46,805 nt of DNA, from positions 1 to 46,805 of the forward strand of contig JACPPF010000038.1 of the NCBI GenBank assembly GCA_016191165.1. The letters run 5' to 3'. Under the pieces are notes generated by a model. That model was not told the DNA's origin. It did not search any database and worked only from the letters and a program-made list of their open reading frames with translations. This document shows positions 23,120-27,075 of this stretch, one piece after another. Source of the DNA: Planctomycetota bacterium (GTDB taxonomy: Bacteria; Planctomycetota; Planctomycetia; Gemmatales; Gemmataceae). The stretch's first letter is position 1; the number at the start of each line of letters is the position of its first letter. The position numbers and the translations under genes are program-made.

Positions 23120-23188
23120 CCAGCCCCCAGCGCAAGCTGGGGGTCTTTGGAGGCTGCTCACCCCCCCACGCTTGCGCGTGGGGCTGGT
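23119..23188. repeat. 70-base double-hairpin repeat, orientation A
   Basis: It begins ACCAGCCCCCAGCGCAAGCT and ends with a hairpin CCACGCTTGCGCGTGG then GGCTGGT. Its first base is the last base of the MFS stop codon. The reverse complement of the same element lies at 37282-37350. Confidence 0.8.
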
Positions 23189-23271
23189 CTCGCGCCGCAT
23201 GGCATTGCCATGTCGCGACGTGAAGCGATAGAATCTCCTCAGGGGAAATTCTGTGGTGCAAGGGAGGCCGC

Positions 23272-23838
23272 ATGATCCGATTCCTAGCGGGACTTTGCAT
23301 TTTTGGGCTAGCCGCCGCATCGTTGTCCGCCGGCGGCGACGATGCCAAAGACCCCAAGAACTGGACGCCGGTGCGCATTCGCGGCGGACAGGAGGCGCCG
23401 GAATTCGAAGACATCGCGCAGTGGCTCAACAGTCCGACCCTCACAATGAAGGCGCTCAAGGGCAAGGTCGTCGTCATTCATTTCATGGCCTTCGGCTGAA
23501 TCAACTGCGTACGCAACTACCCTTGGTACAAGGGCATCTGGAAAGATTTCAAGGACAAGGGCGTCGTCGTCATCGGCATCCACACACCGGAAACCGAAGG
23601 GGAGAAAAACGTCAAGGCGCTGCAAAAACGCCTCAAGGATGCGGGCCTGACCTTCCCGGTCGCAGTGGATAACAAGACCACGATGTGGCGGCGCTACAAC
23701 AACAGCTACTGGCCCTCGGTTTACCTCATCAACAAGCAGGGCCTGGCGCGCTGGGGCTGGGCCGGCGAACTCGGCTGGAAGGGCGCGCGGGGCGAAGTTC
23801 ACATGCGCGCGAAAATCGTGGCGCTTCTCAAGGAATGA
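23272..23838 (+). CDS. Predicted selenoprotein: secreted thioredoxin-fold (TlpA/redoxin-like) protein with Sec-x-x-Cys
   Basis: If the TGA at 23497-23499 is read as selenocysteine, this is one 188-residue gene. An N-terminal signal peptide (MIRFLAGLCIFGLAAASLSA) is followed by a redoxin domain: KGKVVVIHFMAFG, then U76-I-N-C79, then VRNYPWYKGIWKDFKDKG. A cis-proline region (NNSYWPSVYLINKQG) and helical C-terminus follow. Homologs carry C-I-N-C at this place, so TGA replaces exactly the attacking cysteine. Coding character continues unchanged after the TGA to the true stop at 23836. A ribosome-binding site AGGGAGG lies 4 bases before ATG 23272. It probably acts as a thiol-disulfide or peroxide reductase outside the cytoplasm. 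The alternative is a nonsense mutation. Confidence 0.8.
23520..23534 (+). promoter_or_regulatory. Candidate bacterial SECIS hairpin
   Basis: CCCUUG-GUA-CAAGGG forms a perfect 6-bp stem with a 3-base loop. The loop starts with G, 26 bases after the UGA at 23497-23499. Published bacterial SECIS rules ask for a short apical loop with a G in the first two positions, a stem of at least 4 bp and 16-37 bases from the UGA; all three are met. It lies inside the coding region, as bacterial SECIS elements do. Confidence 0.6.
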
Positions 23839-24097
23839 GGGCAAGGGAACAGGCCGGCTCGACGGACATTGGCACGAATCGGACCCGGTCCGGCGAATTC
23901 GATCTCGCCACGGCAGGTCTAGATCGTGCGGGCCGGTGGATTCATCGCTCACACCTCAATGAGTGGATGAAAAGCGCCGATTTCAAAATAATCCCACACC
24001 TCCTGCAAACTTTTACCCGCAGCGGAAATCTCCTTGTACGGGAAGAGCTTTCGCGGCACGTGCCCTTCGCAACGGGGCGCCGCGGTTGGAGTTTCTG

Positions 24098-24637
24098 ATG
24101 CAAGAAAAGCAAGACCAGGAAGATCTCTTTCGCCAGCAATGGGTCCACTGGCAGCCTCGCATCTATGCATTTATTCGCACCGTCATTTTCAGCCGCGCCG
24201 ACGCGGAGGACCTGCTTCAGGAAGTCGCGGAGGTGCTGTGGCGGAAAATCGATTCGTTCGAGCCGGGCACGCGCTTTGATCAATGGGCCTTCGGTGTCGC
24301 CCGCAACAAGATGCTCAATTTTCAGAAGAAGAAGGCGCGCGAGCGCGTCCGGTTCAGCGACTCGCTGGAAGAGATCCTGACCGACGAGGCCGCCGCATCG
24401 CTCGACAAGAACCCAGCCATGCTCGATTCGCTGGAGGCGTGCGTCGAGAAACTCCCAGCTCAACACCGCGATTTGTTGCGGCGCCGCTATGAGCCCCAGG
24501 CGACTGGCCGCAGCGTCGCCACCGCGCTGGGCCGCAGCGAGGCGGCGATCAGCAGGACGCTCAACGCGATCTATGGCCTTTTGCTGGCGTGCATTGAAAT
24601 GGACGTCGAAATCACGCCCACGGAGCGAAGCCAATGA
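24098..24637 (+). CDS. ECF-type RNA polymerase sigma factor
   Basis: This 179-residue sigma-70-family factor has region 2 (YAFIRTVIFSRADAEDLLQE, then FDQWAFGVARNKMLNF) and region 4 (LPAQHRDLLRRRYEPQATGR, then SVATALGRSEAAISRTLNAI, a helix-turn-helix). It belongs to the planctomycete-verrucomicrobial ECF group. I chose ATG 24098 because TTGGAG lies 7 bases upstream and homologs start here. Its stop overlaps the ATG of the next gene (ATGA), so the two are translationally coupled. The downstream membrane protein is the likely anti-sigma partner, which would hold this factor inactive until a signal arrives. Confidence 0.93.
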   Translation: MQEKQDQEDLFRQQWVHWQPRIYAFIRTVIFSRADAEDLLQEVAEVLWRKIDSFEPGTRFDQWAFGVARNKMLNFQKKKARERVRFSDSLEEILTDEAAASLDKNPAMLDSLEACVEKLPAQHRDLLRRRYEPQATGRSVATALGRSEAAISRTLNAIYGLLLACIEMDVEITPTERSQ

Positions 24638-27075
24638 GCGCTGGTTCCTTCGATCAGAACGAATTGCTGCAACTCCTCGGCGCCGTGCGCGACGAGCAGA
24701 TCACGGCCGAGCAGCTTGAACGCCTCGAAGGCATCCTCACCCAAAGTGCCGAGGCCCGGCGATTCTATGTGCGATTCCTGACCATTCACGGATTGTTGGA
24801 ACAGGCAGCGGTTGCCGTTTGTGCGGACGCGAGCGCCGGGCCGACGCCCGGCGTCCCAACGGCTCGGCCCGCGCCGAGAGCCTGGCGCCGTTCCGTTTGG
24901 GCCATTGCAGGCATGGCGGCGGCGGTGCTGGTCGGCCTGTCGATCTGGTGGGTCCTTTCCAATCGGCCCGACGACCGGGGTCCGCCGGGCAAATCGCCGG
25001 CGTTCGCCTGGAATGTGACGCCGACGGGAAACGCTCAGTTTGATCGGCTCTCGCCAACGTCCGGGCGCCTGGTGCGCGGCGAGGTGCGTATCCAGTCCGT
25101 CAAGCTCGACGTCGAGCCAGGCAGGGACGCCGAAGAACCGGGGCCGATGATCGTCGAGACCCCGGCCGGCCAAGTCACCATCAACGGTTCCGATGTCCTG
25201 ATAGGGACTCACGAAATCACCCCCCCGCAAGAAAAAGGAGAACAAGCAATGAAGCGTTTCACGCGCGTCCTGGTGTTGGCCGGGGTTGCCACGCTGATGA
25301 ACCAGCAGGGCGCCATCACGGGAGACGCCAACAGCCTCCTCGCCGCTCAGCCCAATCTGGCGCCGGCCAAACAGATCGTCCAGGCCAACACCGATTTTGC
25401 CGTGGACCTCTTTCGCCAGCTCGCAAAACAAGAAGCCGGCAAGAACGTCTTCTTCAGTCCGTACTCGGTTTCCGTCGCGCTGGCGATGGCCGCCGAGGGA
25501 GCGCGGGGCGCGACCGCCGAGGAGATGGGTAAGGTCCTGCACTTCCCGAAAGCCGCACGCCGGATCGGCGCTGACGCTCAGCTCATTCCCTGGCAAACGG
25601 CATTGATTCATACGGGACTCGCCAAGATCAGCCGCGACCTGATCGCCTTGCCGAAGAAGGGGGCGCATCCGTTCGACCTGCGCATCGCAAACGCCCTGTG
25701 GGGGGAACGTACTTTTCCGTTCCGCAAGCAGTTTGTTGAAACGCTCAACGACTCGTATCGCACCGGCGGCGTGTTTCCCTGCGATTTCGCCGCGAATCCC
25801 GAGAAGGAGCGCGTGCGGATCAACGACTGGGTTGCCGATCAGACGAATAAACGCATCAAGAACTTGTTGCCGAATGGCTCGCTGCAACGTGACACGCGTC
25901 TGGTGTTGACCAACGCCATCTATTTCAAGGGAGACTGGGTGCAGAAATTCGACCGCAAGAGCACCAAGGCGGCGGATTTCACGACCCAGGCAGGCCAACG
26001 CATCAAGACGCCCATGATGTTCGGCGCCTTCCATGAGGCCCGGTTCGCGTTCATCGGCGCCGGGGACGCGACCGAATCGCTCAGGCTCGGCAAGGCGGAC
26101 AACCTTCGGCTCGTGGAGTTGCCCTACCGCGGCGGCCTGTCGATGGTGTTGATCGCTCCAGACAACGTCGGCGGACTGCCCAAACTGGAGTCCAGGCTCA
26201 ACGCGGGAACCCTTAACAAATGGATCGGACAGCTTCAGCCCGAGAAAAAAGTGGAGGTAAGCCTGCCGCGCTTCAAGTTTACGACGGCGTATGACCTTCC
26301 CGATGTCTTGAAGCAGCTTGGCATGGTCTGCGCGTTTCGCTCGCCCGGTCCGGATGGGGCCGACTTTTCCGGCATGAGCCAGTCCGGTTTGCGCGAACTG
26401 GCGCTTGGCGCCGTGGTCCACAAGGCGTTTGTCGCTGTCAACGAGGAAGGCACCGAGGCGGCGGCCGCGACGGGCGTTGTCGGAATGACTGGCCCCGCGC
26501 CGAAGCCCGCGCCAAAATTTGCCGGGGATCGCCCCTTCCTGTTCCTCATTCGCGATCAGCGCTCCGGAACCATTCTGTTCATGGGCCGGGTGGCGGATGC
26601 CGCTGGCGTCGCGAACAACGACCTCAGCGAGGCGCAGGAGCAAAGCATCAAGCTGGCGCGGACGACGCCGACGAAGCACCCGCTGTACCAGCGCTTGAAG
26701 AACGCGGCGGGTGTGGCCATCGTGCGGACCTATCGCGACCCGAGCGGACTCATGGAACTCAAGGCGGACCGCGCGGGCCGGACAATCCTGCAATGCCGAA
26801 TCGTGCTCGACCTGAAGGGCGGCTTGAAAACCGGCTCGCTTCCCTGGCTGACCCTGGAACGAAAAGTAAACGAGGCCGAAACCGGCCAGGCTTTTGTTGA
26901 TTTCTTCAGCCCATCCTACACCACCTATTCCGTGCTCGCTGTCTATCGGCGCGATGGCGGTAAGGCGATCGTCGAAGAGGTGATTGAGGTTGACGAAGCG
27001 GCGCGGCTAATCGTCGCGAACCTCTATGCCATTCCCGTCGAAAGGCTTTCCGGCTACGTGGAACGCGGCAAGTAG
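24634..27075 (+). CDS. Anti-sigma/FecR-like membrane protein fused to a serpin
   Basis: This is a continuous 813-residue protein. The N-terminal cytosolic part (NELLQLLGAVRDEQITAEQL, then ARRFYVRFLTIHGLL) is the usual start of planctomycete FecR regulators. One membrane helix (AIAGMAAAVLVGLSIWWVL) is at about 90-108. A FecR-like segment spans about 120-245, including TRVLVLAGVATL. A serpin domain (about 255-665) follows: NVFFSPYSVSVALAMAAEGA, TNAIYFKGDW and the inhibitory hinge EEGTEAAAATGV near 604-615, then RPFLFLIRD. The last about 150 residues are unrecognised. An internal ATG at 25249 with AAGGAG upstream could make a serpin part alone. Such a protein could link protease activity outside to the sigma factor. 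Confidence 0.9.
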   Translation: MSAGSFDQNELLQLLGAVRDEQITAEQLERLEGILTQSAEARRFYVRFLTIHGLLEQAAVAVCADASAGPTPGVPTARPAPRAWRRSVWAIAGMAAAVLVGLSIWWVLSNRPDDRGPPGKSPAFAWNVTPTGNAQFDRLSPTSGRLVRGEVRIQSVKLDVEPGRDAEEPGPMIVETPAGQVTINGSDVLIGTHEITPPQEKGEQAMKRFTRVLVLAGVATLMNQQGAITGDANSLLAAQPNLAPAKQIVQANTDFAVDLFRQLAKQEAGKNVFFSPYSVSVALAMAAEGARGATAEEMGKVLHFPKAARRIGADAQLIPWQTALIHTGLAKISRDLIALPKKGAHPFDLRIANALWGERTFPFRKQFVETLNDSYRTGGVFPCDFAANPEKERVRINDWVADQTNKRIKNLLPNGSLQRDTRLVLTNAIYFKGDWVQKFDRKSTKAADFTTQAGQRIKTPMMFGAFHEARFAFIGAGDATESLRLGKADNLRLVELPYRGGLSMVLIAPDNVGGLPKLESRLNAGTLNKWIGQLQPEKKVEVSLPRFKFTTAYDLPDVLKQLGMVCAFRSPGPDGADFSGMSQSGLRELALGAVVHKAFVAVNEEGTEAAAATGVVGMTGPAPKPAPKFAGDRPFLFLIRDQRSGTILFMGRVADAAGVANNDLSEAQEQSIKLARTTPTKHPLYQRLKNAAGVAIVRTYRDPSGLMELKADRAGRTILQCRIVLDLKGGLKTGSLPWLTLERKVNEAETGQAFVDFFSPSYTTYSVLAVYRRDGGKAIVEEVIEVDEAARLIVANLYAIPVERLSGYVERGK

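Follow-up and report, generated by a model that had tools for sequence, protein, structure and literature searches.

A DipZ-like thioredoxin-fold protein of Planctomycetota with selenocysteine almost certainly at its active site

Gene, reading frame and predicted product

The window, a stretch of 46,805 nucleotides taken from a draft assembly of a planctomycete of the Gemmataceae, has a G+C content of 62%. The features relevant to this study, all on the forward strand, are as follows.

23260–23267, + strand: Shine-Dalgarno-like AAGGGAGG, 4 nt 5' of the ATG (direct reading)
23272–23838, + strand: proposed selenoprotein gene, 188 codons plus stop, for a predicted secreted TlpA/DipZ-like thioredoxin-fold protein with a UINC active site
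23272–23334, + strand: signal-peptide-like N terminus MIRFLAGLCIFGLAAASLSAG, recognised by inspection only; orthologues have similar hydrophobic N termini
23497–23499, + strand: in-frame TGA (Sec76), position 1 of UxxC, matching the first Cys of the DipZ CINC motif
23506–23508, + strand: TGC (Cys79), second residue of the UxxC pair and presumed resolving Cys, invariant in the alignment
23520–23534, + strand: bacterial SECIS hairpin CCCUUG(GUA)CAAGGG, covarying, kept by genes with TGA and seldom present in those with Cys
23707–23715, + strand: cis-Pro loop Tyr146-Trp147-Pro148, with WP invariant and matching the YWP of DipZ

Between the ATG at 23272 and the stop TGA at 23836–23838 the sole interruption is the TGA at 23497–23499, confirming the original prediction that this codon splits a continuous thioredoxin-fold gene whose frame is otherwise open to 23836. 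Read through, the 188-residue product (...HFMAFG-U-INCVRNYPWYKG...YWPSVYLI...) matches the Pfam domains AhpC-TSA (6.4e-14) and Thioredoxin_8 (9.5e-10), as well as Redoxin, with a sub-threshold match to GSHPx. An AhpC-TSA/Thioredoxin_8 domain with a CxxC motif and a cis-Pro loop is what defines a TlpA/DipZ-like oxidoreductase, and the window protein has these features, with UxxC at the active site. Orthologues that carry the TGA share 53–69% identity with the window protein, and a search of NCBIfam gave no fitting model over cut-off for it. An AlphaFold model built from a three-row alignment reached a pLDDT of 46.9, with an order of helices and strands compatible with a thioredoxin fold; as the model is poor, the fold assignment rests on sequence homology and on the predicted order of secondary structure.

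Several other elements lie nearby. A GC-rich imperfect inverted repeat at 23120–23187 (CCAGCCCCCAGCGCAAGC ... GCTTGCGCGTGGGGCTGG), possibly a terminator or a mobile repeat, separates the gene from an MFS transporter gene, and a DsbB-like gene is found ~3.4 kb upstream, with nothing tying the two redox genes together. The interval 23963–27075 holds a gene for a sigma-70-like factor followed by an 813-aa open frame, the C-terminal part of which is a full serpin domain (1.1e-110), and the N-terminal region of which reads like a membrane-anchored segment. The open reading frames inspected around the loci L047 and L048 included no common neighbours, hence there is no operon evidence.

Selenocysteine and cysteine at one codon

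A split frame is in itself weak evidence of recoding, since 79 TGA codons in the window each lie between two open stretches that share one frame and are both longer than 60 codons. The free energy of the hairpin is similarly unremarkable, being not unusually low when compared with shuffled sequences (z = -0.46), so the case depends on relatives of the gene. Homologues of the read-through protein were gathered from the genome's own family and class, and 53, all from Planctomycetota, were aligned. Codon 76 is TGA in 13 of these and TGC or TGT in the other 40, with nothing else at the position, which is the alternation of TGA with cysteine codons that had been proposed as a check. The TGA falls exactly on the first catalytic Cys of the CxxC motif, in the homologues and in DipZ alike, and thus on a redox-active residue, as expected of a bacterial selenoprotein. 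In addition to the window's own genome (G000), the carriers are G001, G009, G030, G046, G052, G058, G063, G261, G269, G309, G331 and G366.

The simplest rival explanation is that a Cys codon has been mutated or misread to TGA, leaving either a dead gene or an intact one that encodes Cys. The assembly is a draft, TGA is a single step from both TGC and TGT, and the chance-split frames noted above show how readily such an arrangement arises; against this, the same TGA recurs in 13 genomes from several families, and the 12 other assemblies refute a pseudogene or sequencing error in practice. One carrier, G331, is a single-contig genome of 99% completeness, which makes draft error a poor explanation. 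The sequence 3' of the TGA is also under purifying selection, with a dN/dS of ~0.17–0.27 for the window's gene and its closest orthologues. Among close orthologues synonymous sites have changed more than replacement sites on both sides of the codon, indicating that the downstream half is translated. With the covariation of the hairpin described below also against it, this explanation retains next to no probability.

The SECIS hairpin

The hairpin consists of six base pairs closed by a GUA loop with G in first position. The original prediction had placed it 20 bases past the TGA, in agreement with bacterial SECIS geometry, and this is upheld; the loop, which had been put at 26 bases, in fact starts at the 27th base past the UGA. 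Strict SECIS-like criteria were then defined as a stem of at least 5 bp, a loop of 3–6 nt, a G at loop position 1 or 2, and a loop starting 16–37 nt past the UGA. Hairpins of this description occur in 12 of the 13 TGA genes, where synonymous recoding of the same proteins would yield 1.8, and in only three of the 40 Cys genes, against an expectation of 2.4; the hairpin is therefore conserved with the TGA, as had been anticipated. In the thirteenth TGA gene, from G046, the stem is longer and interrupted by an internal loop, and the apical loop is GUC.

Covariation was assessed across the 11 genes that share the same register, comprising 66 cells over six pairs. Of these cells 97% are paired, two of the 66 being unpaired, and three of the six pairs are altered on both sides; no pair has become a different standard pair through a change on a single side. 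The covariation score of 0.339 compares with 0.163 for shuffled alignments, 0 of 500 of which scored as high, and all shuffle and slide controls score lower. The stem persists in G001, as CUCUU/AAGAG, even though the protein changes from PWYKG to SSYKS, so that the pair change alters the protein yet preserves the stem, which suggests selection on the RNA. A small apical loop containing G, just 3' of the UGA, is characteristic of a bacterial SECIS element, and its presence in 12 of 13 TGA genes together with the covariation identifies the hairpin as one. The pattern goes beyond chance because TGA and Cys exchange at the exact codon across 53 homologues and because retention and covariation of the hairpin are confined to the TGA genes.

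A Cys version of the gene, L068 (G264; TGC), still spells CCUUG-GUA-CAAGG at the SECIS position and groups with the TGA genes in the tree. This may be a relic SECIS left by a reversal from Sec to Cys.

Selenocysteine machinery

The window's genome encodes a tRNA-Sec(TCA) (73 bits), SelA (559.9 bits) and a 667-aa SelB (361.6 bits) that includes the SelB winged-helix (SelB-wing) domain, and so has the three components expected of an organism that makes selenoproteins. Of the machinery for which a search had been proposed, only SelD did not exceed the cut-off in the draft assembly, which is 95% complete; context and sequence reading indicate that its two best matches are ThiL- and HypE-like. As SelD is present in all six of six same-genus genomes, and given the completeness of the assembly, its absence is likely an assembly gap. 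In many relatives selD has one in-frame TGA (e.g. G001:C92, G030:C366, G063:C12; L063, L065), which suggests a Sec-containing SelD, while in other relatives SelD lies within an open frame of 630–810 aa that is probably a fusion.

Across 42 genomes, SelA exceeds the cut-off in 12 of the 13 with the TGA form, whereas it does so in 14 of the 29 with the Cys form only. The remaining TGA genome, G058, has a completeness of 79% and carries tRNA-Sec, with SelA below the cut-off; it alone combines the TGA form with a lack of SelA, and the TGA form is absent from each of the 15 Cys-set genomes tested in which SelA does not exceed the cut-off. Full-length tRNA-Sec was found in nine of the 13 TGA genomes and not in the other four (G009, G052, G269 and G366), all of which have SelA.

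Decoding of the TGA as an amino acid other than Sec (Trp or Gly, under an alternative code), or general read-through of the stop, would account for read-through itself, which is well supported. It is contradicted by the use of TGA as the stop codon of both the adjacent MFS gene and the selenoprotein gene itself, by the homologues, which have Cys and never Trp or Gly at the position, and by the presence of tRNA-Sec, SelA and SelB alongside a retained SECIS hairpin. On these grounds an alternative code was rejected, and decoding other than as Sec is scarcely more credible than the error considered above. Recoding of UGA 76, selection on the downstream protein and a conserved SECIS hairpin are each supported by comparison of the sequences.

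Identity and proposed mechanism

The closest solved structures are M. tuberculosis DipZ, followed by SOQ1, NHLRC2 and ResA, with Sec76 aligned over the first Cys of CINC. The C-terminal thioredoxin-like domain of DipZ (PDB 2hyx, 5cyy), which matches residues 41–165 (2hyx, E 5.9e-29), shares the active-site motif, a VIGVHTPE stretch and a cis-Pro loop, YWPAEYLID. DipZ joins this domain to a DsbD-type membrane domain and uses Cys, whereas the window protein is small, stand-alone and predicted to be secreted, with Sec. The thioredoxin-like domains of NHLRC2 and SOQ1 (6gc1 and 7djj; E 8.3e-15 and 2.2e-17) have the CINC motif and belong to the same thioredoxin subfamily; they differ in having Cys and an NHL propeller, while both the propeller and a CC motif are missing from the window protein.

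The product could instead be mainly a selenium-dependent peroxidase of peroxiredoxin or GPx type, and the original prediction had supposed high reactivity to peroxides. Sec is a good peroxide nucleophile, and the AhpC-TSA and Redoxin matches, along with the sub-threshold GSHPx match, would fit such a role. However, the residues ahead of Sec76 (VVVIHFMAFGUINC) contain no PxxxT/SxxC(U) peroxidatic motif, so that a peroxiredoxin identity was rejected and the supposed peroxide reactivity loses its basis; moreover, UxxC is combined with a thioredoxin-type WP loop, and the nearest relatives belong to the thiol-disulfide oxidoreductases. A peroxidase is therefore unlikely, if less remote than the readings that dispense with Sec. 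The other functional proposal, a secreted Sec-containing thiol reductase, agrees with the TlpA/DipZ-like homology and the hydrophobic N terminus.

The locus is almost certainly one gene making a secreted redox protein with an active-site selenocysteine, and there is little room for doubt that the best explanation as a whole is a single selenoprotein gene in which UGA 76 is recoded, the SECIS is conserved and the product is TlpA/DipZ-like. From the established pathway, SelB carrying Sec-tRNA(Sec) would bind the hairpin and insert selenocysteine at the UGA. The N terminus predicts export of the product, which by homology would fold as a TlpA/DipZ-like thioredoxin, in which Sec76 would act as the nucleophile attacking disulfides, Cys79 would resolve the mixed selenenylsulfide, and a putative membrane electron carrier (CcdA/DsbD-like) would re-reduce the protein. 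Such a cycle would make the product, probably, a periplasmic thiol-disulfide reductase.

Relation to known selenoproteins and evolution

Selenocysteine use in planctomycetes has already been reported (PMC4807772). Published UxxC selenoprotein families include a 'Prx-like thiol:disulfide oxidoreductase' (pfam00578), a 'Redoxin family protein' (PF08534) and a 'Thiol-disulfide isomerase-like protein' (cd02966), which, as described there, combine a thioredoxin-fold redoxin domain with UxxC and are of the same broad kind; those descriptions, on which the comparison is based, do not name the DipZ-like CINC subfamily or the planctomycete clade (PMC9312934, PMC13188914). A search of the main texts of openly accessible papers returned none naming selenoproteins together with DipZ, and the only one returned with both 'selenocysteine' and 'NHLRC2' concerns a glycoside hydrolase family. 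Since UxxC redoxin/TlpA-type selenoproteins are published, the claim of an undescribed selenoprotein can hold at most for the subfamily: the kind is already known, and the DipZ-like subfamily appears to be undescribed, going by the published family descriptions.

A tree of the 53 domains implies no fewer than five changes of the Sec/Cys state, four of which are forced by well-supported branches. On this phylogeny Sec and Cys have been exchanged repeatedly at one codon, the direction of individual changes being left undecided by the tree. The codons of PWY[KR]G are close to the hairpin sequence, such that the motif NYPWY[KR]G, as CCY-TGG-TAC-ARG-GG, nearly spells the SECIS hairpin; gain of a SECIS may consequently be easy.

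A TGA was also observed in NHLRC2/SOQ1-like proteins that join a thioredoxin domain to an NHL propeller, in six relatives (L049 in G009, L050 in G060, L051 in G022, L052 in G048, L054 in G041 and L091 in G412). Here the TGA replaces the second C of a CCINC motif (WT[LF]C-U-INC), and in each of the six a hairpin whose loop contains G follows downstream. L051 matches SOQ1 at 2.7e-109 and NHLRC2 at 3.2e-100, and in L054, partly read, a further in-frame stop precedes the domain. When the phylum was scanned for the pattern of the NHL type, most matches were due to chance and one, that in G412, was real. These proteins are apparently a second undescribed selenoprotein family. The odds lean slightly towards the joint reading, namely an undescribed Sec branch of DipZ/NHLRC2-like thioredoxins in Planctomycetota, with several Sec/Cys exchanges at one codon that NYPWY[KR]G may make repeatable, and a parallel exchange in the NHLRC2-like Trx-NHL proteins.

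Standard annotation would split or truncate the gene at its active site, and the correct reading adds a well-supported selenoprotein subfamily to Planctomycetota. With Sec in some close relatives and Cys in others, the gene offers a natural series well suited to studying the contribution of Sec to a periplasmic thiol reductase and the origin of a SECIS hairpin within coding sequence.
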